Assembly: GCF_011947365.2 (NCBI RefSeq) | Contig: NZ_JAAVSH020000001.1 | Coordinates: forward strand, 1,362,000 to 1,409,703 | From: an endosymbiont of Lamellibrachia barhami | GTDB taxonomy: Bacteria > Pseudomonadota > Gammaproteobacteria > Chromatiales > Chromatiaceae | Direction: 5' to 3' | Length of the DNA: 47,704 nucleotides | Shown: positions 34,500 through 47,704 of the stretch, in pieces | Numbering within the stretch: position 1 is the first letter of the stretch | Layout of the letters: the number at the start of each line of letters is the position of its first letter | Position numbers and translations under genes: made by a program | The notes under the pieces: model-generated | The model's database searches: none | What the model was told of the DNA's origin: nothing | Seen by the model: only the letters and a program-made list of their open reading frames with translations

Positions 34500-35666
34500 A
34501 TGTTTCTGCAAATGCATACCCTCACCTCATTTCATGCCAGCCTGCTCAACCGCGACGACGCGGGTCTCGCCAAAACTATTCCCTTTGGAGATGCATCACG
34601 CCTGCGGGTCTCTTCCCAATGTCTAAAGAAGCATTGGCGCGATGCCTTACAAGAAAACCTTAACCTTCCTGATGGACTTAGAACCAGAGAGTTTTTTTCG
34701 CGTGAAGTGAAGCGTCGATTGACTGAAGAAAAAGGGGTTACCGATGAATTTGCCCACTCCTTAGTACTGACTTTAGCAAAAGGGATTATTAAATCAAAGG
34801 GAAGCCCCGTCGATGAAAATACACTGAGAATGGAACAACCTGCCCTATTTGGTAAACCTGAAGCTGATTTTTTCGTGGCGCTGCTGGCCGAATGCGCCGA
34901 GGCAGAAGACGAAAAGGCGGCCAAGGCGCTGCTGGCAGAGCGCCTCAAGACCGACAAGAAAGGCTTCAATGCGATGCTCAGCCAAGCCGGTCATGGCAAC
35001 CTCTATGCAGGCTTTGAGGGGGCGCTGTTCGGCCGCTTTGTCACCTCCGATATCCTGGCCCGCTCCGACGCGGCAGTACATGTAGCCCATGCTCTCAGCG
35101 TCCACCCGGTAACCACCGAAGTGGATTACTTTACCGTGGTGGATGACCTCAACAAGGACGAAGAGACCGGTGCTGCCCACGCCGGTGATATGGAACTGGG
35201 CAGCGGCCTGTTTTACGAATATGTGGCCGTTGATATCCCCCTGCTGGTCTCCAACTTCACCGCCTGCGAGCCTAAGGTATGGCGGAAACAGAATGCTACC
35301 GATGTCAAGACCACCCTCAAGGCGTTGCTCAAGGCCATTGCTACCGTTACTCCAGGCGCTAAGCTTGGCGCCACCGCCCCCTATGCCCGGGCCGACTTTG
35401 TCTTGTTTGAAAGCGGCTGCCAGCAACCCCGCAGTCTGGCCAATGCCTATCTCCAATCCCTGCGCTTCCAGGAGGGTGATGACCCGATGCAGCGGGCCGT
35501 GGATGCACTGGGAGGACATCTGCAAGCGGTCGATGGCATGTACGGGGTCACGGCGGATCAACGCGTGGCCGCCACCACCAAGGAGAGTGGCGCCCTTGCT
35601 GGCATCTCAGTCAACTCATTGGATGCCGCTATCGATGAGACCTTGAACGCCATCTTCGGAGCCTGA
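34500..35666 (+). CDS. cas7e: Cascade backbone subunit Cas7e (CasC, Cse4)
   Basis: A 388-residue backbone protein, six copies of which wrap the crRNA in Cascade. The N-terminus FLQMHTLTSFHASLLNRDDAG and FGDASRLRVSSQCLKKHWR are diagnostic. The thumb segment includes VDYFTVVDDLNKDEETGAAH. The C-terminal domain has GAKLGATAPYARADFVLFE. Bases 34620-34870 are AT-rich compared with the rest of the gene, a second compositional patch in the operon. The start follows AAGGAGTAATCATC, five bases after cse2. Confidence 0.95.
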   Translation: MFLQMHTLTSFHASLLNRDDAGLAKTIPFGDASRLRVSSQCLKKHWRDALQENLNLPDGLRTREFFSREVKRRLTEEKGVTDEFAHSLVLTLAKGIIKSKGSPVDENTLRMEQPALFGKPEADFFVALLAECAEAEDEKAAKALLAERLKTDKKGFNAMLSQAGHGNLYAGFEGALFGRFVTSDILARSDAAVHVAHALSVHPVTTEVDYFTVVDDLNKDEETGAAHAGDMELGSGLFYEYVAVDIPLLVSNFTACEPKVWRKQNATDVKTTLKALLKAIATVTPGAKLGATAPYARADFVLFESGCQQPRSLANAYLQSLRFQEGDDPMQRAVDALGGHLQAVDGMYGVTADQRVAATTKESGALAGISVNSLDAAIDETLNAIFGA

Positions 35667-35670
35667 TGTG

Positions 35671-36414
35671 ATGGATGCCCTGATACTGCGCTTCGACGCG
35701 CCGCTGATGAGCTTCGGCGGGGTAATGGTGGACCAGCACGGCCCCACCGACCGCTTCCCCGGACTGGCCATGCTGACCGGCCTGCTGGCCAACGCCCTCG
35801 GTTACCGGCACGGCGACTTTGACAGGCTGCAGGCATTGCAGGCGCGAATTCAATTCGCTGCCCGCTGGGACGTGGAGCCGGAGCCTATCGTCGATTATCA
35901 CACTGTGGATCTTGGACAGCCCAAGATGATGGGGTATGTCAACGGCACACAACCATTGGGATGGACTACACGGGGCAGCCCTGAAGGACGAGGGAAAGGG
36001 AAGGCAACGAAGGAAACTCATATCCGTTACCGCCACTACTGGGCCAATGGCGTCATGACCCTCGCTGTCACCCTCGAAGGCGAAGGCGCACCCAATCTGG
36101 ATGAACTGGAGGCCGCCTTGCGCCGACCCGCCCGGCCCCTGTTCCTCGGCCGCAAGACCTGCCTCCCCGCCGCGCCCGTTCTGTTGGCGCGAGTCCAGGC
36201 CGCTGACGTACTGGATGCGCTCTGCGGCTACTCCGCCCATCCCAGGATTGCAGAGAACGACGAAGAGACTCTGGCCGCCTGCTGGCCCGCCGGCATCCCC
36301 GGTGGCGTGCATGCCCGCACGGTCAGTCGCTACGACCAGCGGGAGTGGCGAAACCAGATCCATGCCGGCCGCCGTGAGTACAATGAAGGCCGCATCGAGA
36401 GGCCCGCATCATGA
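35671..36414 (+). CDS. cas5e: Cascade subunit Cas5e (CasD)
   Basis: About 247 residues. Cas5e caps the 5' handle of the crRNA in Cascade. The N-terminal RRM-like start LILRFDAPLMSFGGVMVDQHGPTDRFPG is diagnostic. GLLANALGY, ARWDVEPEPIVDYHTVDLGQ and FLGRKTCLPAAPVL follow as in the family. GTG at 35668 and ATG at 35671 are adjacent possible starts; ATG is preferred. The stop overlaps the cas6e start by four bases (ATGA). Confidence 0.93.
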   Translation: MDALILRFDAPLMSFGGVMVDQHGPTDRFPGLAMLTGLLANALGYRHGDFDRLQALQARIQFAARWDVEPEPIVDYHTVDLGQPKMMGYVNGTQPLGWTTRGSPEGRGKGKATKETHIRYRHYWANGVMTLAVTLEGEGAPNLDELEAALRRPARPLFLGRKTCLPAAPVLLARVQAADVLDALCGYSAHPRIAENDEETLAACWPAGIPGGVHARTVSRYDQREWRNQIHAGRREYNEGRIERPAS

Positions 36415-37106
36415 CCACGCCACTCACCATGCTGGAGCTTCGGCTCAACCCCCAGGGATTGATTCGTTTCGCCCAGGAAAACAATGTCAACCGCAACCGG
36501 GATGAGGATCTGGGATACGCTACCCATGCCTGGCTCAAGGCCATCTTTCAAGAACACTCGCCCAAACCTTACCGGCTCATCCGAGGCGCCAATCTCAAGC
36601 TGCTCGGGTACAGCTCCGATTCAGGCCCGGACCTGCTGGAACAGGCCCGGACCTTCGCCAGCCCCCTGGCGCTGGGGGTGACCCGAATCGAAGACCTGCA
36701 ACACGCCAAGTCCATGCCCAACGAATGGCGGCCGGGGCGGCGGCTTGGATTTGAATTGGTGGTCTGTCCCACCAGCCGCAAAGAGGGTCATGAAAAGGAT
36801 CTCTACCGCCATCGCATGGAGCGGTTGGCAGAAGGGGAGCAGGCTCCGTCGCGGGAGACTGTCTACCGGGAGTGGCTGGAAAAACAGATGGGCGATGCGG
36901 CCAGACTGGAAAAGGTCAGCCTTGGGGAATTCCGGTTTGTCTCCCAGCACCGGCGGGGAATAAAGATAAAGCTGGATCGTCCCCAGGCGCTGCTCAAAGG
37001 TGCGCTGACGGTAGCAGACAGTGATGCCTTCAACCGTCTGCTGGCCCGTGGAATCGGCCGCCACCGAGCCTTTGGCTACGGTATGCTGCTGCTGAAACCG
37101 GCATGA
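36411..37106 (+). CDS. cas6e: CRISPR RNA endoribonuclease Cas6e (CasE)
   Basis: A 231-residue pre-crRNA nuclease that cuts each repeat at the base of its hairpin and stays on the 3' handle. Two RRM-like folds. The candidate catalytic His is in GYATHAWL near residue 39. The C-terminal glycine-rich loop GIGRHRAFGYGMLLL is the Cas6 signature. The repeats downstream form a strong CCCCGC/GCGGGG stem, the expected substrate. It overlaps both neighbours by four bases. Confidence 0.94.
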   Translation: MTTPLTMLELRLNPQGLIRFAQENNVNRNRDEDLGYATHAWLKAIFQEHSPKPYRLIRGANLKLLGYSSDSGPDLLEQARTFASPLALGVTRIEDLQHAKSMPNEWRPGRRLGFELVVCPTSRKEGHEKDLYRHRMERLAEGEQAPSRETVYREWLEKQMGDAARLEKVSLGEFRFVSQHRRGIKIKLDRPQALLKGALTVADSDAFNRLLARGIGRHRAFGYGMLLLKPA

Positions 37107-37997
37107 AAGGGGGGCTCTTTCCCGGCCGCCTCGGGCTGGCCGAATCCCGCATCCCCCATGCCGACCGGCACGGCCTGATCTGGCTGTCACGCGGCAAGCT
37201 GACCGTAAATAACGGCACTCTCCACTTCACAGCAGCCAAATCTGAGGAGTTGGACGCCGGTGATTACGCCATTCCCTACCAAGGCGTCTCCATGATCCTG
37301 CTGGGTCCCGGCTCAACCGTTAGCCACGACGTGCTGCGGCTGTTGGCCCGGCATGGCACCCTGCTGGCCGCAGTCGGTGAGGGCGGCGTCAAATTCTATA
37401 CCGCCCCCCCCAATGGGGCAGGGACGCTCTGAGGTGGCCCGCCAGCATGCCCGTCTCTGGGCGGACGAAACGGCCCGGCTGGACGTGGCCCGGCGCATGT
37501 ACGCCTTCCGCTTCGGTCGGGTCCTGCCACACCGGGACATCGCGGTGCTGCGCGGCATCGAAGGGGGGCGCATGAAAAAGACCTACCAAATCCTGGCCGA
37601 CGAGCACGGCATCCCCTGGAAGGGCCGCCGGTATGATCGTCAAAACCCGAATGGCGCCGACATTCCCAACCAAGCTATCAACCACGCCGCAACTTTTGTG
37701 GAAGCTGCTGCCGACGTGGCCGTCGCCGCCCTAGGTGCGCTGCCACCACTAGGCTTCATCCATGAGGACTCCAGCAACGCATTCACCCTCGATATCGCGG
37801 ATCTTTACCGCGCCGAAATCACCCTGCCAATGGCCTTCACAGTCGCCAAAAAGGCCATTGACAACCCAGAGCTACCTCTGGAACGCACCCTACGCCGAGA
37901 AGCCGCACTGCAATTCCGCAAACAAAAGCTGATCGCCAAAATGATCGACCGGATCAAGGAACTGCTACATGCCGATGACCGTGATAGTGACACGTAA
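37103..37997 (+). pseudogene. cas1: Integrase Cas1, frameshifted at a C8 tract
   Basis: Cas1 inserts new spacers together with Cas2. The first frame (37103-37432) reads GLAESRIPHADRHGLIWLSRG, VPYQG-like AIPYQGVSMILLGPGSTVSHD and GVKFYTAPP. It then continues wrongly as NGAGTL and stops. The second frame resumes with MGQGRSEVARQHARLWAD and continues through VLRGIEGGRMKKTYQIL and ALPPLGFIHEDSSNAFTLDIADLYR to 37997. Removing one C from the run of eight at 37404-37411 restores ...YTAPPMGQGRSE... and a normal 297-residue protein. This is either a sequencing error, a loss-of-function mutation or a slippage-prone switch. The catalytic Glu and His residues lie in the second frame. Confidence 0.88.
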
Positions 37998-38268
37998 TGT
38001 CTCCGGCCGGATGCGTGGATTCCTGGCCTCCTCCATGCTGGAAATGGCCCCGGGCGTCTACAGCGCCCCCAAGATGTCACCCGCTGTACGCGAACGTGTC
38101 TGGAATGTCCTCACAGAATGGTTTACTGCCGAACAGGGGGCATCAGTAACCCTCCTCTGGGCCGACAAAAATCAACCAGGAGGCCAAAACGCCAGAACAC
38201 TGGGACTCCCCCCCACCAAACTGGTTGATCTGGACGGGTTACTCGTTACCCACCGACCCACCATATAA
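37969..38268 (+). CDS. cas2: CRISPR adaptation protein Cas2e
   Basis: A 99-residue partner of Cas1 in spacer acquisition, of the type I-E kind with beta-alpha-beta start MTVIVTRNVSGRMRGFLASSMLEMAPGVYSAP. The C-terminal LPPTKLVDLDGLLVTHRP is also typical. The ATG at 37969 or 37975 may be used. It overlaps the end of cas1 by 29 bases, consistent with coupled translation. Confidence 0.93.
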   Translation: MPMTVIVTRNVSGRMRGFLASSMLEMAPGVYSAPKMSPAVRERVWNVLTEWFTAEQGASVTLLWADKNQPGGQNARTLGLPPTKLVDLDGLLVTHRPTI

Positions 38269-38318
38269 TTTCCACGCTCTTTAACAATTTGTTACTATTC
38301 ATGCTGTTAGATGCTAGA
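38269..38318 (+). promoter_or_regulatory. CRISPR leader
   Basis: A 50-base AT-rich stretch between the cas2 stop and the first repeat, ending TTAGATGCTAGA directly before the repeat, similar to the AT-rich leader end of E. coli type I-E arrays. It is short, so the array promoter may lie partly inside cas2. Confidence 0.6.
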
Positions 38319-39200
38319 GCCTCCCCCGCATCCGCGGGGATCGACCTCCACTGACACTCCCCGTGATCCTGCAAAAACCGCCTCCCCCGCATCCGCGGGG
38401 ATCGACCCTCAACACCTCAGGCAAGATGCTCGCCAACTACGCCTCCCCCGCATCCGCGGGGATCGACCAACTGACCACCCTGCAGCACAAATACCGCGTA
38501 CGCCTCCCCCGCATCCGCGGGGATCGACCCACTCTCTGATCTAGTTCCTTTTGTTTCTGTCGGCCTCCCCCGCATCCGCGGGGATCGACCCTGGCGCCTT
38601 GCCAGACTCCATTTCCCACATCAGCCTCCCCCGCATCCGCGGGGATCGACCCTTCAGCTCATTTGCTTCCTGCACCCAAAGTTCGCCTCCCCCGCATCCG
38701 CGGGGATCGACCCTTAACTGGATACGGATCGACAAGAACTAGGTGGCCTCCCCCGCATCCGCGGGGATCGACCTGCAGTATTTGAGATCGAGTCCAGGCC
38801 TCAAACGCCTCCCCCGCATCCGCGGGGATCGACCTGCCATACTCTCTTCCAAGCTCATGCCGCTACCGCCTCCCCCGCATCCGCGGGGATCGACCTCAAG
38901 TCGCGGGCGGTTGAGTCATGAACGAACTGCCTCCCCCGCATCCGCGGGGATCGACCCCTTGCTAAGTGATTGGGAGAAGTGCGGTCTTTGCCTCCCCCGC
39001 ATCCGCGGGGATCGACCTGAACCTCTCTGACTATATAGATGCGTATTTTGGCCTCCCCCGCATCCGCGGGGGTCGACCTTGAGTGTTCGGGGGAATTGTC
39101 AACCTTGGCTTGCCTCCCCCGCATCCGCGGGGATCGACCCTTTTGCGCGGACCGTTTATGTCCATTCCCGATGCCTCCCCCGCATCCGCGGGGATCGACC
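38319..39200 (+). CRISPR. Type I-E CRISPR array, 15 repeats and 14 spacers
   Basis: The 28-base repeat GCCTCCCCCGCATCCGCGGG followed by GATCGACC recurs every 61 bases from 38319 to 39173 without exception. All 14 spacers are 33 bases. CCCCGC and GCGGGG make the Cas6e hairpin. Fourteen repeats are identical. The thirteenth (39051) has one A-to-G change in the 3' arm. The last repeat is perfect, although trailer-end repeats usually decay, and its final base abuts the attC-like site. The orientation (leader at cas2) fits the I-E consensus. I found no spacer matching another part of this window by eye. Confidence 0.98.
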
Positions 39201-39289
39201 TATAACGTCGCAAATAACTGGGCGTTAAAAGTGTTGCGCGTTTTTTGCGCGACGCTTTTAACGCTCCATGTTGATTTGCCTTGTTAGGC
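39200..39289 (-). other. Integron attC-like site 1, abutting the CRISPR array
   Basis: Read on the minus strand it starts GCCTAAC (39289-39283, R''-like) and ends GTTATAG at 39206-39200 (R'-like). Between them GCGTTAAAAG pairs with CTTTTAACGC at 39221-39262. Outer arms CAAAT...GCG pair with a few unpaired bases, as in attC folded strands. It follows the stop codon of the cassette gene by three bases. The R' box starts exactly where the last CRISPR repeat ends. Confidence 0.6.
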
Positions 39290-39292
39290 GAA

Positions 39293-41124: not shown

Positions 41125-41808
41125 GTGTCTGAACTGAAAAAAATACACTGCAATACATGCAAACGTGAAACCAACCATGAGTTGTTGGCAACACATGATT
41201 GTGACTACCATGAAGCAGAGGGCAAAGTGCTTATGTGGTATGAAAATACACGCTATGGATTTTGGGTATGCAAAGGGTGTGATACAGCAATATTAGAAGA
41301 AAAGTATACCTGCTCAGGAATGCATGATAGTAATGGAGAAGATATCTACTCCTATGAATATTCTCCTGAAAGAAAAAATAAAGCATCACGTACAGCAAAG
41401 AAATTTGCTCATATTAATAAAAAACTAAATTCAGCCTACTTAGAAATCATAAATGCACATAACCAAGGCCTCGTAATTATATCTTCCATAGGGGTTAGAG
41501 CTTTATTAGAGGGTATTTGTGTAGAAGAAGGTATAGATGACAATGTAAGTAGAGGTCTAGCCGGTAAAATCAAAGAGCTACAAAATAAAGGAAATATTCC
41601 AAAGAGCATAATTGATGGCTTAAATAGCCTGAAATTTATCGGAGACAATGCAGCTCACAGGTTAGACTCAAGTGATACTCACACTATTAAGCTGTCAACT
41701 GTCGATTCAAGCGCTGAACGCCGGTTTTGTCTCGAAGATGCTTTCGAGAAGAAGAGCTGTTTATTTCCTCCAACGACCGGTCGCAACAGGCGGCTTGAGT
41801 TGAGTTGA
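41125..41808 (+). CDS. DUF4145-type cassette protein, probably 3' altered
   Basis: A 227-residue protein starting at GTG 41125. It has an N-terminal zinc-ribbon-like part (CNTCKRETNH, then WVCKGCDTAILEE) and a helical DUF4145 region with IINAHNQGLVIISSIGVRALLEGIC and SLKFIGDNAAH. DUF4145 proteins are often linked to restriction or defence nucleases. After HRLDSSDTHTIKL the family pattern stops and a Cys- and Arg-rich tail follows (from about 41700), where GC content also rises. The cassette has probably lost its own 3' end and attC and now reads into chromosomal sequence. Confidence 0.65.
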   Translation: MSELKKIHCNTCKRETNHELLATHDCDYHEAEGKVLMWYENTRYGFWVCKGCDTAILEEKYTCSGMHDSNGEDIYSYEYSPERKNKASRTAKKFAHINKKLNSAYLEIINAHNQGLVIISSIGVRALLEGICVEEGIDDNVSRGLAGKIKELQNKGNIPKSIIDGLNSLKFIGDNAAHRLDSSDTHTIKLSTVDSSAERRFCLEDAFEKKSCLFPPTTGRNRRLELS

Positions 41809-41873
41809 GTTACATTTTTTCCATCACACCGAGTTATGTCACATCGCTGTTTAACACTAGGAGAGTCAGCAAA

Positions 41874-42596
41874 ATGAAGAAGTTGATCATCGCCCTCAGT
41901 CTGGCCGGCCTCTGCGCCCTGCCTGTCACTGGACAGGCCGCTAAATATAAAGAGGTCTCCGTCAGCAACGGCGGCACCATCACCGGCAAGGTGAGTTTTG
42001 CCGGCAAGGACAAAGCGCCCAAACGAACAATGATGTCTGCGGCACAGGTACCCGTGAGATCGACTCCGTCCGGGTCAATAACGGCTCACTGATGGACACA
42101 GTTGTCTATCTGGACTACAGGTCAAAACAGGCAAAGCCTTCGACTACGCCTCGATTTCAAATGCAGTCCTGGATCAGAAAGGTTGTGAGTTCAAACCCTT
42201 CCTGCAGGTAATGAAGAACGAAACCAAGATCGCAGCCGTCAATCAGGATCCTATCCTGCATAATATCCACACCTACGAGATCATCGGACGCACCAAGAAA
42301 ACCGTCTTCAACGTAAGTCAGCAAACCCAACACCCGTCACCAAAAGCAGTCGAAACTGGAAGCACGGATCCGCCATGAAGGTTGAGTGTGACGCCCATGA
42401 TTTCATGCACGGTTTCGTCTTTGTCGCCAAGAACCCCTACTACGCTATGGTAGCGGAGGACGGCACTTTCAGCATCGACAATGTACCCCCGGGCAAATAC
42501 ACCATCAAGGCCTGGCACGGCACTCTGAAGGACCAGAAATCCAAGGTTGAGGTTGCCGCCGGCGGCACCGCCAACGTGGATTTCACCTTCAAGTAA
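41874..42596 (+). pseudogene. Secreted carboxypeptidase-regulatory-like protein, multiply frameshifted
   Basis: The signal peptide MKKLIIALSLAGLCALPVTGQA and the start VSNGGTITGKVSFAGKDKAPK are in one frame from 41874. CGTGTREIDSVRVNNGSLMDTVVYL follows in another, then FDYASISNAVLDQKGCEFKPFLQVM and LHNIHTYEIIGRTKKTVFNVSQ. Finally SAMKVECDAHDFMHGFVFVAKNPYYAMVAEDGTFSIDNVPPGKYTIKAWHG runs in frame to 42596. At least three shifts separate these pieces. The family consists of periplasmic beta-sandwich proteins with conserved His and Cys residues that may bind metal. The last 73 codons (42375-42596) are open. The start follows AGGAGAGTCAGCAAA. Confidence 0.75.
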
Positions 42597-42653
42597 AACC
42601 TTGAGGGGACTGTCGGATAGCCTATTCCGGCAGTCTCCCATGGAGACCGGACT

Positions 42654-42770
42654 ATGATATTTTCAAAACGGCTGAACCTGGCGCCGCTCGACTATCTCGC
42701 CATCGTTGCCGGGATCATCAATGCATTGGTGATCGGAGCCATCGTCGTCTACTGGTTTCTTAATAACTAA
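42654..42770 (+). CDS. 38-residue single-pass membrane peptide
   Basis: The ATG at 42654 follows GGAG at a spacing of eight bases. The peptide MIFSKRLNLAPLDYLAIVAG... ends VIGAIVVYWFLNN. It has one hydrophobic helix (about residues 14-35) with a short basic cytoplasmic start. It lies between the secreted protein remnant and the USP-PCP_red gene on the same strand, 57 bases from the former, and may be part of the same operon. No family recognised. Confidence 0.55.
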   Translation: MIFSKRLNLAPLDYLAIVAGIINALVIGAIVVYWFLNN

Positions 42771-42845
42771 AAGGTGGCAGGTTAAAGGTGACAGGCGACA
42801 CGTCCTGAATCCTGCGACCTGTAACCTGTAACCTGTAACCTGTCT
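42771..42845. repeat. ACCTGTAACCTGT inverted repeat element, complete
   Basis: The left arm AAGGTGGCAGGTTAAAGGTG and ACAGGCGACA faces a right arm of three ACCTGTA units (CGACCTGTAACCTGTAACCT). The related element at 47141-47336 has the same ends but is split by a REP-like unit. The right arm reaches to within 12 bases of the USP gene start. Confidence 0.6.
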
Positions 42846-42856
42846 CCTTTTTATCT

Positions 42857-45091
42857 ATGCCCGCACAAACTCAAGCCAGCTCCAATGCGCCGATAAGGCT
42901 ACCTACCTATGAATCCATCCTGTTCGCGGTGGACTCTTCCGATCATTCAAACCGCAGCATCACCGAGGCAGTCAATCTGGCTGGCATCTGGAACAGCGCC
43001 CTAACTGCCGCCCACGTCTATGCGGCCAAACTGCACGATGTGCGCTTTCGCCAAATGGAGGGGGGGCTGCCGGAACAGTTTCGCGAAGAACAGGAACTGG
43101 AGCGCCAGCGGGATGTGCATGACGACCTGATCACCCGGGGACTGTCGATCATCACCGACTCCTATCTTGATCAGGTGGAAAGGCAGGCACAACAACAGAA
43201 CATCGAACTCAAACGCTGCTCTCTGGAAGGCAAGAACTACCGGGAACTGGCGCGTGAGACCAACAGCGGGAACTACGACCTGCTGGTAATGGGCGCCCTG
43301 GGCCTTGGCGCCGTCAAAGGCAGCCGGCTCGGCACCGTTTGCCAGCGTGTCGCAAGACGCAGCAACATCGACATGCTGGTGATCAAGGATCCCCAACATT
43401 CAATCAAGAGAGGCCCCATCGTGGTCGCAGTGGACGGCTCCACCCGATCCTACGGCGGTCTGCTCACCGCCCTCGCCCTGAGCAAGGCGTGGGACGTCCC
43501 GGTGAAGGTGATCTCCGCTTTCGATCCCTATTATCACTACGTCGCCTTCAATCGTATCGCCGGCGTACTCTCCGAGGAGGCAGGCAAGGTGTTCCGTTTC
43601 CAGGAGCAGGAGAAACTGCACGAAGAGATCATCGACTCCGGCCTGGCGAAGATCTACCAGGGACATCTTGAAATCGCGCGGAATATCGCTGCGGATCAGG
43701 GCATGCGAGTGGAGATCAAACTGCTCGACGGCAAGCCTCACGACGTCATCAACCGCTACCTGAAACTGGAACAACCCTCTCTGCTGGTGATCGGCAAGCT
43801 GGGCATCCACGCCGACGACGAACTCGATATCGGCGGCAATGCCGAGGCCCTGCTCAACGACGTGGATTGCGCGGTATTATTGAGCCAGCGGGAGTACCGC
43901 CCGCCGGTGGAGCGCATCGCCGAGGTCACCACCTCCTGGACCCACGAGGCAGAGGTTCGCATGGAGCGGGTCCCCTCCTTTGTGCGCAACATGGCGCGCA
44001 TGGCGATCCTGCGCTACGCCCAGGAGCACGGTCATACGGTCATCACCGAAAGCATCGTTGAAGAGGCCACCGCCCAGCTGATGCCGGGACGCGCCGAACA
44101 GGCGATGTCCGAGATCGTCGAGGCCTACGACAATGGTGAGTTGAAACGCAAACCCTCTGCCGAAGAAGCCATGCGCTGGGATGAAGCGGCCAAACAACTG
44201 CTGCTCACGGTGGATAACCTCAGTCTGCGGGGCAACCTGAGCATGCGGGCGGAGAAGAAGGCACGGGCCGCCGGTCTGCGTATCGTCTCCGCAGAACACA
44301 TCGAGCCGTTTCTTGACAAGGACCTTGATGAGGGCCGAGGGCCAAGGGCCAAGGGCCTAGGAAAAGAACGCTCTGCCCCACCCTCGGCCCTTGGCCCTGA
44401 TTCCTCGGCCCTGATACATTGGCAGGCCGCGGCACTGGCCCGTCTGATGCGGGTCCCCGAGGGTTTCATGCGGGACGCATCGAAACAGCGCATCGAAGAG
44501 TATGCCAGTGAGCAGGGACTCAGTGAGGTCTCCCTGCAAACCGCCGAAGCGGGACTGGACAGGACCCGGGATGCTATGGCGTCGGCCATGCAGGGCGATG
44601 CTCAACCCGCCGCCCCGGCAGCGGAGAAAAAGAGCGCCTGCCCCTTTGCCGAACTGATACAACCCGCACCACAGCCAACGCCCTCCGCCCTTGAACACAG
44701 GCTGGATTGGGACAGCGATGCTGAGGCAATGCTTGCCAACGTCCCTGCCGGTTATTGCCGCGATATGACGGTGAAGGCTGCTGAAACCATTGCCGGACAG
44801 AGCGGCATGGAACAGATCGATGCGGATTTTCTGGGCCAGGTCATGCAGACCTTCACCCAGGGTTCAGCAACCGTAGAGGAGACAATGCCCTGGAATGAAG
44901 GTGCCCGAGAGCGCATCGCCAAGGCGCCTGAGATGGTTCAGGGCATGCTGGTGAAAGAGATCGAGGGTTGGACCCGACGGCAGGGACTCGACCGGGTCGA
45001 TCACGATGCGGTGGACGCGGTGAAGGCAGAGTGGGCCGAAGGTGGCGTATTCCACCTCGATCCCAGCGATCCCCGCAACGGGAACACCTGA
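42857..45091 (+). CDS. Tandem universal-stress protein fused to five PCP_red-like repeats
   Basis: A 744-residue cytoplasmic protein. USP domain 1 spans about residues 17-178 (YESILFAVDSSDHSN; nucleotide-loop-like GALGLGAVKGSRLGTV). USP domain 2 spans about 186-344 (GPIVVAVDGSTRSYGG). Five repeats of 45-50 residues with the PCP_red pattern W..EA...L..VP..FVR......I..YA...G follow, at about 360, 438, 519, 615 and 676. The first is canonical: SWTHEAEVRMERVPSFVRNM. PCP_red is known as the C-terminal domain of the light-independent protochlorophyllide reductase B subunit. The in-frame segment at residues 493-519 is encoded by a dispersed repeat. There is no good ribosome binding site. The radical SAM gene follows after 12 bases. 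Confidence 0.85.
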   Translation: MPAQTQASSNAPIRLPTYESILFAVDSSDHSNRSITEAVNLAGIWNSALTAAHVYAAKLHDVRFRQMEGGLPEQFREEQELERQRDVHDDLITRGLSIITDSYLDQVERQAQQQNIELKRCSLEGKNYRELARETNSGNYDLLVMGALGLGAVKGSRLGTVCQRVARRSNIDMLVIKDPQHSIKRGPIVVAVDGSTRSYGGLLTALALSKAWDVPVKVISAFDPYYHYVAFNRIAGVLSEEAGKVFRFQEQEKLHEEIIDSGLAKIYQGHLEIARNIAADQGMRVEIKLLDGKPHDVINRYLKLEQPSLLVIGKLGIHADDELDIGGNAEALLNDVDCAVLLSQREYRPPVERIAEVTTSWTHEAEVRMERVPSFVRNMARMAILRYAQEHGHTVITESIVEEATAQLMPGRAEQAMSEIVEAYDNGELKRKPSAEEAMRWDEAAKQLLLTVDNLSLRGNLSMRAEKKARAAGLRIVSAEHIEPFLDKDLDEGRGPRAKGLGKERSAPPSALGPDSSALIHWQAAALARLMRVPEGFMRDASKQRIEEYASEQGLSEVSLQTAEAGLDRTRDAMASAMQGDAQPAAPAAEKKSACPFAELIQPAPQPTPSALEHRLDWDSDAEAMLANVPAGYCRDMTVKAAETIAGQSGMEQIDADFLGQVMQTFTQGSATVEETMPWNEGARERIAKAPEMVQGMLVKEIEGWTRRQGLDRVDHDAVDAVKAEWAEGGVFHLDPSDPRNGNT
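44332..44414. repeat. GC-rich inverted repeat element inserted in frame
   Basis: GAGGGCCGAGGGCCAAGGGC at the left and CCTCGGCCCTTGGCCCTGA at the right are inverted versions of each other, as at 426-562. The insertion adds about 27 codons (reading GRGPRAKGLGKERSAPPSAL...) to the linker between the second and third PCP_red-like repeats without breaking the frame. Confidence 0.75.
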
Positions 45092-45103
45092 CCGGGCCAC
45101 CCT

Positions 45104-47152
45104 ATGTCTGATCGCGACCTTTTTCTTCTGGCAGTCAACCTCACCCGCCGCTGTAATCTGGCCTGCGACCACTGTTACATGGACGCCGACGCCCGGGAGA
45201 GCGGCGGTCAAAACGAACTCACCACCAACGAGGTCAAAACACTGTTGGAGGAGGTCGCCAGCCGCAGCAATGAGACCATGGTGGTGCTCACTGGAGGCGA
45301 ACCCCTGCTGCGTCGTGACTTGGTGGAACTGGTCAACCACGGCAGTTCACTGGGACTCTCCATCGTGGTCGGCACCAACGGGGTTTTGCTCAATGAGTCC
45401 AGGGTACAGCAGCTGAAGGCGGCAGGCGTCATGGGTTTGGGCATCAGTCTCGACTCCCTGGATCCCACTCAGCACGACGGCTTTCGCGGCTGCCCCGGCA
45501 GTTGGGAGAAGACCCTTGCAGGCATGGAGACCTGCCGCAAGCTCGATCTGCCTTTCCAAGTCCACTTCTCGGTCACCGAACAGAATGCCCACGAGATCCA
45601 GGGCATGATCGACTTCAGCCGGGCCGCCGGCGCCCATGTGCTGAACATCTTCTTCCTGGTCTGCACCGGTCGCGGCGAGTCGATGAGCGACATCACCCCG
45701 CAACGTTACGAAGCCGTGTTGAAACAACTGGTAGAGGCCCAGGCCGCCACCAGTGACCTGATCATCCGCGCACGTTGCGCACCCCACTACAAGCGCATCG
45801 CCTACCAGCTCGACCCGGAATCCCCTTTGACCCGAGCCCAGGGATACGAGGGCGGCGGCTGCCTTGCAGGCATTCACTACTGCCGTATCACCCCGGAGGG
45901 CGGTGTCACCGCCTGCCCCTACATCCCCGATGAAGAGGGAACTATCCGGGAGACGACTTTCTGGCAGATCTGGGACAACTCCCCCACCTTCGCCCAGCTG
46001 GCCCACCCAAAACTGGGCGGCAAGTGCGGTAAGTGCGAATATCAACAGCTCTGCAGCGGCTGCCGTGCACGACCCAAGGCCCTCGGCGGCAGCCTGATGG
46101 ACGCCGACCCCTGGTGCTCCTACCAGCCGGAGGGCAAGCCGATAATCCAGCCACTGGTCCCCGCAATAGCCGATGATGTGACTTGGTCGTCCGAAGCGGA
46201 AAAGCGTCTCTCCCGGGTTCCCGGATTTCTGCGCAAGATGGTACGCAAACGGGCTGAAGACCATGTGCGGAAACTGGGAAAAGCTGTGGTCACCCCGGAG
46301 CATATGGCGACTTTGGCAAAAAATCGCTTCAAAAACGGCATGCCCTCCGGTCCACCCGGTAACGTCAGTTCCATCGCCGAGGCGGGAGCGCAACCCATCA
46401 GCGATGCGCCTCCCCTGCCCTGGACAGCTGAGGCGCAAACCCATCTCGATACCCTGCCCCCTTTCCTGCAGGAGGGCGTCCGCCAGGTGGCAGAAGACGT
46501 CGCGCGCAACGAGGGCCGGCTGGAAGTCAACATGAAGCTCCTGCAACGTCTGGAGGATGAAGACGAACCCAGGCGCGCCTTCCCCTGGGATGAAGAAGCG
46601 GAACATCTGCTGAAAATAGCCCTGTCCGACCGGGGGCCCCAGGTCAGCCTCTTCGTCCAGCCATCGATGGAAGCCGCAGTGGAACGGGAGGTGAAACGCC
46701 GCCGGGCACAGCGGGTGGCCGTCGAGGATGTCGTCAAGGTGCTGGATACCCTGATGGCCGGGGTTGAATGGAATCCTGAAGCACTGGCACGGGTGAAGAC
46801 CGCCCCCGAATTCGTCCGTGCCGGCATCAAAAAAGCCGCCGAATTCGCCGCCCGCCGGGAAGGCCTTGAGGAGATTACCAGCAACGACCTGACCCGGTTC
46901 CGCAACCGCGCCATGATGCGGGCGGTACGGCGCATGAAGGGATTCGATATGAAGACCCTCGACTTCGACGCCTTCAGTATCGCAAAAGAACGCATGCCCC
47001 GTCTCAAAGACAACGAACAGGCCGCCAGACGTTTCGCTGAAATTCGCGAATACGTCGAAAGCCACCAGAACCCGGACGGCAGCGGACTCGGCACATTGGG
47101 GCGGGACCTGATCGAAAAGATGCGGCGGGAATTGAAGGAAGGTGACAGGTGA
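45104..47152 (+). CDS. NirJ/AhbD-like radical SAM-SPASM protein fused to four PCP_red-like repeats
   Basis: A 682-residue protein. The radical SAM core has CNLACDHC (Cys17, Cys21 and Cys24 binding the SAM cluster), then LTGGEPLLRRDL (about residue 63). The segment RARCAPHYKRIAYQ (about 226) and YCRITPEGGVTACPYIP, with the auxiliary-cluster region CGKCEYQQLCSGCRARPKALGG (about 308-329), match the NirJ/AhbC/AhbD group, which modifies tetrapyrrole side chains. Four PCP_red-like repeats follow at about 360, 438, 492 and 553 (first: WSSEAEKRLSRVPGFLRKMV). A C-terminal helical tail completes it. The neighbours, a PCP_red fusion and a protoporphyrinogen-oxidase-like flavoprotein, support tetrapyrrole chemistry. 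The stop codon lies inside a dispersed repeat. Confidence 0.85.
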   Translation: MSDRDLFLLAVNLTRRCNLACDHCYMDADARESGGQNELTTNEVKTLLEEVASRSNETMVVLTGGEPLLRRDLVELVNHGSSLGLSIVVGTNGVLLNESRVQQLKAAGVMGLGISLDSLDPTQHDGFRGCPGSWEKTLAGMETCRKLDLPFQVHFSVTEQNAHEIQGMIDFSRAAGAHVLNIFFLVCTGRGESMSDITPQRYEAVLKQLVEAQAATSDLIIRARCAPHYKRIAYQLDPESPLTRAQGYEGGGCLAGIHYCRITPEGGVTACPYIPDEEGTIRETTFWQIWDNSPTFAQLAHPKLGGKCGKCEYQQLCSGCRARPKALGGSLMDADPWCSYQPEGKPIIQPLVPAIADDVTWSSEAEKRLSRVPGFLRKMVRKRAEDHVRKLGKAVVTPEHMATLAKNRFKNGMPSGPPGNVSSIAEAGAQPISDAPPLPWTAEAQTHLDTLPPFLQEGVRQVAEDVARNEGRLEVNMKLLQRLEDEDEPRRAFPWDEEAEHLLKIALSDRGPQVSLFVQPSMEAAVEREVKRRRAQRVAVEDVVKVLDTLMAGVEWNPEALARVKTAPEFVRAGIKKAAEFAARREGLEEITSNDLTRFRNRAMMRAVRRMKGFDMKTLDFDAFSIAKERMPRLKDNEQAARRFAEIREYVESHQNPDGSGLGTLGRDLIEKMRRELKEGDR

Positions 47153-47336
47153 CAGGTATCAGGGAACAAAACCGGCTCTTCGACTTGGCACATGAGTCTG
47201 TAGGCCCGATCAAGCGTAGCGGATCGGGCGGCCAGAGCATGGCGAAGCTTTCGAGGGTGCCGGTTCCGCTACGCTTGAACCGGCCTACAACTCTTTTCCT
47301 ATTGTCGCTTCAGAACCACAACCAACCTGTAACCTG
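47141..47336. repeat. Split ACCTGTAACCTG element with nested REP-like unit
   Basis: The left arm GGTGACAGGTGACAGGT starts at 47141, overlapping the last four codons of the radical SAM gene. The right arm ACCTGTAACCTG ends at 47336, three bases before the flavoprotein start. A two-unit REP-like repeat lies between them, so one mobile repeat family seems to have inserted into another. Confidence 0.6.
47200..47288. repeat. REP-like palindromic repeat pair
   Basis: GTAGGCCCGATCAAGCGTAG at the left and the inverted CCGCTACGCTTGAACCGGCC plus TAC at the right, the best conserved two-unit copy in the window. The two arms are of the two different subtypes (CGATCAAGCG and CGCTTGAACC). Confidence 0.8.
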
Positions 47337-47339
47337 AAT

Positions 47340-47681
47340 ATGATCGAAGCGAATATTCTCATCATCGGCGGCGGTATCTCCGGCCTTTCCACTGCATGGT
47401 GGCTGGCCGAGGGTGGCGCTCGACCCGAGGTCTGGGATGCAGCACCACGTCTGGGCGGCAAGATTCGCAGTCATAGTGAATCCGGTTATCTGACCGAGGA
47501 TGCCGCCGGTATTCTGATGAACTTTCACCAGGAAGTGGATCAGTTGGTTGAGGCATCGGGCCTGTCCGATAAGAAGATTTCACGCGGCACCGATATGCGC
47601 CGCTATGTGGTACATAAAGGTGAGCTTCGACCGGTTCCTATGAAACTACCCGCCTTGTTAAAATACCCTTATGAGCAATAA
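47340..47681 (+). CDS. Protoporphyrinogen-oxidase-like FAD flavoprotein, 5' part only
   Basis: 113 residues starting MIEANILIIGGGISGLSTAW, with the dinucleotide-binding GGGISG motif, the following LAEGG and a RLGGKIRSH segment typical of HemY/PgoX-type amine oxidase-fold flavoproteins. The segment DAAGILMNFHQEVDQLVEASGL continues the family pattern. After LPALLKYP the frame runs into YEQ and a stop at 47681, although such enzymes have about 450 residues. It is thus truncated or frameshifted near 47670, and only 23 bases remain to decide. It lies downstream of the radical SAM gene and would supply the oxidation step in a tetrapyrrole pathway. Confidence 0.65.
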   Translation: MIEANILIIGGGISGLSTAWWLAEGGARPEVWDAAPRLGGKIRSHSESGYLTEDAAGILMNFHQEVDQLVEASGLSDKKISRGTDMRRYVVHKGELRPVPMKLPALLKYPYEQ

Positions 47682-47704
47682 TGCAACGGAACCAGTAATA
47701 ACAA

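Follow-up and report, generated by a model that had tools for sequence, protein, structure and literature searches.

The 47,704-nucleotide window analysed here is the whole stretch from position 1,362,000 to 1,409,703 of contig NZ_JAAVSH020000001.1, from an endosymbiont of Lamellibrachia barhami. Near its end are two adjacent genes whose products carry arrays of the PCP_red domain (PF08369), one array on a double universal stress protein (USP) and the other on a radical S-adenosylmethionine (SAM) enzyme with a SPASM domain. In relatives, this gene pair is conserved, is usually followed by a gene for a HemY-type protoporphyrinogen oxidase, and co-occurs strongly with a CydA-like oxidase and c-type cytochromes; the pair and the HemY gene are referred to below as the module. 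Its features in the window are given here, with the evidence for each in brackets (aa, amino acids; dN/dS, ratio of nonsynonymous to synonymous substitution rates; ORF, open reading frame).

42654..42770, plus strand: gene for a 38-aa single-helix peptide, directly upstream of the USP gene (recurrence in relatives)
42857..45091, plus strand: USP-USP-PCP_red x5 protein, 744 aa (Pfam matches; relatives elsewhere; dN/dS)
42908..43387, plus strand: first USP domain (best Pfam stretch 18-177; top Foldseek match 3ab8)
43415..43891, plus strand: second USP domain, limits approximate (two Pfam stretches; model strands and helices 188-343)
43937..44068, plus strand: PCP_red copy 1 of the USP protein (55.6 bits)
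44177..44302, plus strand: PCP_red copy 2 of the USP protein (47.8 bits with a home-built profile; five Pfam stretches)
44420..44548, plus strand: PCP_red copy 3 of the USP protein (41.0 bits)
44708..44836, plus strand: PCP_red copy 4 of the USP protein (32.2 bits by itself and 32.5 when its neighbours are included)
44891..45025, plus strand: PCP_red copy 5 of the USP protein (28.6 bits alone, under the cut-off of 32.5; 43.5 bits with the home-built profile)
45104..47152, plus strand: radical SAM/SPASM-PCP_red x4 protein, 682 aa (Pfam and NCBIfam matches; dN/dS)
45134..45616, plus strand: radical SAM core with CX3CX2C (Pfam stretch 11-171; motif in 60 of 61 homologues)
45860..46039, plus strand: SPASM domain, whose CX2CX5CX20C motif (Cys308, 311, 317, 338) extends to about 46117 (Pfam stretch 253-312)
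46184..46309, plus strand: PCP_red copy 1 of the radical SAM protein (55.0 bits)
46421..46549, plus strand: PCP_red copy 2 of the radical SAM protein (36.2 bits)
46592..46753, plus strand: PCP_red copy 3 of the radical SAM protein, position approximate (four Pfam stretches; model helices 497-549)
46769..46897, plus strand: PCP_red copy 4 of the radical SAM protein (42.0 bits)
47340..47681, plus strand: cut 5' end of a HemY-type protoporphyrinogen oxidase gene, a 113-aa ORF at a scaffold gap

The domain content proposed in the initial annotation, with five and four PCP_red copies on adjacent proteins and a double USP front end, is borne out by profile searches. The USP protein matches PF08369 at 140.8 bits (E 1.3e-41, cut-off 32.5) in five stretches and PF00582 (Usp) over its cut-off at 112.8 bits in two, and the radical SAM protein matches PF08369 at 115.8 bits (E 8.3e-34) in four stretches, together with Radical_SAM (89.5 bits) and SPASM (23.2 bits). 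For the USP part, the top Foldseek match is 3ab8, a tandem USP solved with ATP, and 3cis is also matched; the first domain contains a G-x2-G-x9-G-T stretch, spotted by eye, which we take to be a nucleotide-type motif. Structure models of the two proteins (mean predicted local distance difference test scores 78.2 and 77.8; predicted template modelling scores 0.57 and 0.54) give the domain order and leave the packing of the arrays unfixed. A scan of the whole genome with PF08369 returned seven single-domain matches, all in the USP and radical SAM genes and none elsewhere. Copy 3 of the radical SAM protein is unlisted in that scan and is also missed by the home-built profile; this profile was made from the copies of this genome, was used for the copy counts in homologues, and misses one radical SAM copy relative to Pfam.

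The annotated stretch from 42654 begins with the single-helix peptide rather than with one of the named proteins. In 32 loci the USP gene is separated by only a short gap from the gene of a secreted protein upstream; similar peptides were recognized there by eye in most cases, and a loose pattern gives a hit in 27 of these 32, at least one of the hits (L026) being a different peptide. The HemY-like gene placed after the pair is real, but the ORF in the window is a cut piece, which scores 63.8 bits against TIGR00562, under the cut-off of 97.85. A run of N begins at the window end (L008:7705-8112), and the intact HemY gene (492 aa; L008:8435-9910), a full-length TIGR00562 match at 229 bits, lies just outside the window downstream. 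Between the N run and the intact gene there is a second, broken copy of the radical SAM gene tail (gap region L008:7705-8340; window 47681-47704), and this copy and the cut HemY copy, which flank the gap, are probably an assembly duplicate.

Relatives of the USP protein were taken as the best 80 of 139 from a scan of genome contigs, and 81 loci were clustered. They occur in tubeworm symbionts, Sedimenticola, Thiodiazotropha, Gallionella, Ferrigenium, Mariprofundus, Parabeggiatoa, and many other Proteobacteria, many of which oxidize sulfur or iron. The radical SAM gene directly follows the USP gene in 68 of 80 loci and HemY comes next in 61 (71 of the 80 loci have more than 2.2 kb of sequence after the USP gene; HemY is in the opposite orientation in L095), which upholds the earlier expectation that the three genes are conserved together. 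At least one PCP_red copy is present in all 80 clustered USP proteins, and 64 have five. Among 69 radical SAM proteins (the proteins of this genome are included in both sets), 66 have at least one copy, and the remaining three are cut fragments of 201-319 aa. The presence of the domain in these proteins is thus no accident.

In 14 of the 69 radical SAM proteins there is a single PCP_red copy, and in all 12 of those covered by an alignment of 61 homologues it stands at the place of copy 1, beside the SPASM domain. Residues W361, P373, and F375 of this copy are invariant across the 61 aligned homologues, including the 12 short forms. Because the copy beside SPASM is the one kept in single-copy forms, the alignment suggests that it works at the active site. 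The CX3CX2C and CX2CX5CX20C motifs are each found in 60 of the 61, the exceptions being L022, which lacks the former (its frame is cut), and L025, which lacks the latter. Both motifs, with the same spacing, are given for AhbD in a part of PMC3942049, and a spacing of CX2CX5CX20-21C is given for NirJ in a section of the review PMC10548856.

The recurrent neighbors of the module include a cytochrome bd subunit I-like protein (PF01654, 63.6 bits in the one member scored, cut-off 26.2) and c-type cytochromes, one of which carries an ethylbenzene-dehydrogenase-type domain. Of 80 loci, 43 show the bd-like protein, 13 a lactonase-type nitrous oxide (N2O) reductase, and 50 one or the other, though many contigs stop too soon to decide. 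A search at E 1e-20 covered 26 of the 37 loci without an oxidase in view, the genome studied here, and three positive controls; the oxidase was found elsewhere in the genome in 19 of the 26 (in G479 as a short fragment only) and in all three controls. The histidine at position 19 of Escherichia coli CydA is kept in 46 of 46 aligned bd-like proteins. Of the E. coli GRQPW stretch, which marks quinol oxidases, only the W is kept in the two bd-like rows printed. The protein is a candidate member of the "OR-C" type and probably takes electrons from cytochrome c.

Two genome surveys, one of the order (170 genomes) and one of the class (276 genomes), with completeness of at least 90% and with at least the genome studied here in both, show how closely the oxidase and the PCP_red genes track each other. 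Genomes with multi-copy PCP_red genes were assigned by eye from match number and frame length; the counts for the order set hold among the matches listed. In the order set the oxidase occurs in 29 genomes, spanning 14 of 50 genera, and all 29 also have multi-copy PCP_red genes. Conversely, it occurs in 29 of the 31 multi-copy genomes (30 with six to eight matches, and G470 with two) and in none of the 73 other PCP_red genomes, whose frame lengths are chiefly BchB-like, with four having a lone domain only; G393 (five matches) and G425 (four) were placed among these 73. The status of G470 was confirmed by reading the fetched stretch, and G360, G467, and the genome studied here were also read. 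The class set has nine genomes with both, two with the oxidase only, two with the PCP_red genes only, and 263 with neither. Its multi-copy genomes are G000, G012, G103, G108, G137, G181, G190, G193, G194, G202, and G235, the last of which has a split HemY and no more of the radical SAM gene than a fragment. Weak CydA-like matches in the class set (E 1e-5 to 1e-8) were excluded from the oxidase count, and the matches counted include fragments in G190 (113 and 180 aa, class set) and G414 (194 aa, order set). Fisher tests give 1e-30 for the order set and 1e-13 for the class set, values inflated by kinship, as the genomes are not independent.

A lactonase-type (clade III) N2O reductase, scoring 770 bits against NF052460 (cut-off 700) with only a weak match to cytochrome D1, adjoins the module in some Gallionella-type and Mariprofundus loci (e.g., L076:6818-8653), and 11 of 37 module genomes carry the gene. 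As this is only 11 of the 37, N2O reductase was rejected as the main partner, and the oxidase fits better.

Further links to tetrapyrroles come from PCP_red itself. In two relatives the domain is fused C-terminally to a ferredoxin-dependent bilin reductase domain (L110:7470-8489 and L109:7426-8400; PF05996 at 39.2 and 38.0 bits, cut-off 31), and both of these also hold PCP_red frames of BchB length. As bilin reductase is another tetrapyrrole enzyme, this fusion strengthens a tetrapyrrole role for the module. L111 and L112 have frames of similar size to these fusion proteins. By sequence, PCP_red matches the solved domain 2kru and the lone domain 2l09. The match to TIGR01278 (BchB) reaches 87.7 bits (cut-off 490.35), with its best stretch at profile positions 456-510 of 512 and thus not full-length. 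A place for the PCP_red copies in a chlorophyll reductase was rejected on the lack of any further PCP_red match in the genome. Lone PCP_red-like proteins of 58-60 aa are encoded in Gammaproteobacteria (L107:6872-7045, L113:6891-7064, and L092:2354-2536).

We consider that there is an even chance that these genes form a dedicated tetrapyrrole maturation module, probably for a modified haem, that serves the bd-like terminal oxidase. A functional link of some kind between module and oxidase is likely, and it is put no higher because 7 of the 26 further module genomes lack the oxidase. We infer each chemical and transfer step from sequence. HemY would oxidize a porphyrinogen to the porphyrin, and the housekeeping ferrochelatase would insert iron; the radical SAM enzyme would then modify propionate or vinyl side chains, in the manner of AhbD and NirJ, while the PCP_red copy beside SPASM would keep the macrocycle in the active site. 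Both proteins' PCP_red arrays may retain the product and pass it on, the USP pair, being of nucleotide type, could act as a nucleotide-gated scaffold or release switch, and the product, a modified haem, would be delivered to the bd-like oxidase. Whether the bd-like oxidases of sulfur and iron oxidizers carry at their oxygen site an undescribed haem-type cofactor, made on PCP_red carriers by an AhbD/NirJ-like enzyme, is a more tentative matter, and we regard this as possible but doubtful. The initial annotation had also proposed a dedicated tetrapyrrole system, which agrees with the occurrence of PCP_red on bilin reductase, but it missed the tie to the bd-like oxidase and, in some genomes, to the lactonase-type N2O reductase (L-NosZ).

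The haem background of the module genomes bears on two alternatives. In the first, the module would be another route to ordinary haem b, in which HemY acts on coproporphyrinogen, ferrochelatase makes coprohaem, and the AhbD-like enzyme decarboxylates it while PCP_red holds the coprohaem, giving more haem for a cytochrome-rich operon. The near-equal AhbD score and the AhbD cysteine spacing suit this route, as does the occurrence of ahbD with hemY/hemH/hemQ or ahbABC sets described in part of a review (PMC10548856). HemY is over its cut-off in 30 of 30 genomes tested, with one gene in 28 and two in G285 and G291. A HemJ-like match is present in 17 of the 30 (five over the curated cut-off, twelve somewhat below it) and missing from 13. 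Only G294, a genome that has HemJ as well, matches the HemG family PF12724 over its full length; of the 13 lacking HemJ, five match roughly half of that profile and eight give no match. By coordinates, the HemY of each of these 13 is that of the module (G285 has a second). In about a dozen genomes, this one included, the module's HemY is therefore the only oxidase of this type with a good match and, as these lack a HemJ-like or full-length HemG match, probably serves ordinary haem synthesis too, which favors the haem b route and qualifies the earlier picture of HemY as a dedicated part, conserved in the module as it is. Against the haem b route, HemN was found in 15 of the 16 genomes examined for it, this one included, which makes a second route unneeded, and 17 of 30 have a HemJ-like match; the PCP_red arrays, the USP part, and the strong tie to one oxidase would also be left unexplained. 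We consider the haem b route rather unlikely. A missing HemN that would force the AhbD route was itself rejected on the same 15 of 16, the exception, G287, being 1.6 Mb and possibly incomplete.

The second alternative, that a NirJ-like variant supplies haem d1 to a cytochrome cd1 nitrite reductase or a related protein, could draw on the NirJ-family similarity and on the cytochrome D1 proteins present in 23 of 30 module genomes. Such proteins are absent at E 1e-30 from the other 7 of 30, the three in the genome studied here lie about 0.73 Mb from the module, and the beta-propeller neighbor of some modules scores as a lactonase-type N2O reductase with a weak D1 match; haem d1 supply was mostly rejected on the missing D1 proteins, and we regard it as highly improbable. 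The module is therefore poorly explained either by haem d1 or by a missing classical route, because D1 proteins are absent in 7 of 30 genomes and HemN is present in 15 of 16.

The assignment of a NirJ/AhbD-like core in the initial annotation agrees with NCBIfam, whose best models are NirJ2 and AhbD, and with the AhbD cysteine spacing; the NirJ model reaches 156.5 bits, below its cut-off of 515.45. The phmmer and Foldseek neighbors include the maturases PqqE, SkfB, and SuiB, and with these a different role could be drawn, in which the target of the SPASM enzyme is a small protein of the operon (for instance a single-helix peptide) and PCP_red is no more than a helical binding module. Several small membrane peptides are encoded in the operon and lone PCP_red proteins exist elsewhere, both of which would suit peptide maturation; yet the next NCBIfam family after NirJ2 and AhbD, TIGR04053 (251.3 bits), scores about 58-60 bits lower, the named peptide maturases score lower still, and a HemY gene follows in 61 of 80 loci; we judge peptide maturation distinctly unlikely. 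The solved structures that the radical SAM protein matches include no chain named AhbD or NirJ, and the fold search therefore cannot separate a tetrapyrrole enzyme from a maturase.

Other recurrent neighbors are a HEAT-repeat protein, a secreted carboxypeptidase-regulatory-like protein, and a thioredoxin-like protein (read as SCO type) in 14 of 81 loci. A histidine kinase family and a sigma54-type regulator family, which often follow the module, occur in 38 and 34 of 81 loci, and with the nucleotide-type USP part they raise the idea of a haem or redox sensor that sets the expression of the oxidase operon through these two proteins. We hold this to be very unlikely, as several Gallionella-type loci (e.g., L068 and L076) have the pair without these regulators, and a radical SAM enzyme with HemY fits synthesis better. 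A molybdopterin oxidoreductase (PF00384) is encoded near the module at L097:13531-17076 and L093:11354-14890; for the former, the best model is a type II DMSO reductase subfamily, below its cut-off.

Several observations weigh against a dedicated tetrapyrrole module for the oxidase. The genome studied here has the USP/radical SAM pair and HemY, and searches found no bd-like oxidase in it, including the search at E 1e-20, which was also negative in 7 of the 26 further module genomes. Two of these seven, G293 and G476, carry L-NosZ, and another, G492 (locus L074), shares genes with G467 of the order set and is apparently the same genome. The oxidase is found without the PCP_red genes in G080 (about 90% complete), where the three module genes are missing between kept neighbors, and in G174, where no PCP_red was found. 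The pair lacks an adjacent HemY in L096 and L108. The NirJ2 and AhbD scores of the radical SAM protein (311.8 and 309 bits) are both below the cut-off of 500. The lone PCP_red proteins adjoin genes without an evident tetrapyrrole link, the 58-aa one lying by a DAHP synthase gene. Finally, dN/dS of the three module genes between this genome and two relatives is 0.09-0.17 (0.12-0.14 for the USP gene and 0.09-0.10 for the radical SAM gene), in a genome with no oxidase found; we read these values as reflecting mostly the time before the oxidase was lost.

All five genus-mates of this genome have both the multi-copy PCP_red genes and the oxidase, and the sequence just upstream of the module is disturbed in it. 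Synteny with relatives begins within the tail of a HEAT-repeat gene, and the gene after it is broken:

41697..41790, plus strand: last bases of the HEAT-repeat gene, end approximate (synteny with relatives begins here)
41873..42597, plus strand: broken gene of the secreted carboxypeptidase-regulatory-like protein, cluster 8 (indels including a 16-nt gap relative to L116; family of the intact gene)

The break at 41697 and the broken secreted-protein gene point to a deletion, a rearrangement, or an assembly fault. A DUF4145 ORF (41125-41808) crosses the join at 41697 with its end running into the HEAT gene tail, which marks a rearrangement or a wrong join. Farther upstream, the ORFs at about 35600-39290 putatively belong to a type I CRISPR-Cas locus that includes a repeat array.

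Non-quinol bd-like oxidases occur in several chemolithotroph groups, here sulfur and iron oxidizers, and we are aware of no work that describes their cofactors or how they are assembled. A gene pair that closely tracks the bd-like oxidase is a direct genetic handle on this cofactor and assembly question. The occurrence of PCP_red in BchB, with a bilin reductase domain, on a radical SAM enzyme, and on a USP protein makes it a likely general tetrapyrrole-handling part; if there is indeed a new cofactor, PCP_red would be a general tetrapyrrole carrier or lid domain far outside chlorophyll synthesis. In the literature searched (open-licence papers, few of them relevant), no description of the module was found. 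The main text of PMC10839748 contains neither protochlorophyllide nor radical SAM, and the main texts of Gallionellaceae pangenome and Siderophilus papers contain none of radical SAM, chlorophyllide, and universal stress. Sections of PMC10839748 describe OR-N bd-like types as putative cytochrome c oxidases, and bd-like oxidases outside the quinol-oxidizing kind in Nitrospinota.

The module shares parts with several known systems and differs from each. The C-terminal PCP_red domain of BchB/ChlB belongs to the same family (PF08369) and the module's copies match its solved form, 2kru, but only the last 55 BchB positions are matched, and here the domain forms arrays on USP and radical SAM proteins. 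AhbD and NirJ/NirJ2 have in common with the module protein a radical SAM core with a C-terminal cysteine cluster and supply its best NCBIfam profiles; the module protein reaches about 310 bits of 500, however, and has extra C-terminal PCP_red domains and oxidase neighbors. With HemY (TIGR00562) the likeness is a full-length match over the cut-off, the module's version differing in that it sits in the module and in that 17 of 30 genomes also encode a HemJ-like protein. The bilin reductase with a C-terminal PCP_red domain (PF05996) is another tetrapyrrole enzyme, with a different catalytic domain and in genomes without this module's oxidase. The oxidase itself resembles cytochrome bd oxidases of the OR-C/OR-N kind, the former label being our presumption, in its PF01654 match and in the conserved position-19 histidine.

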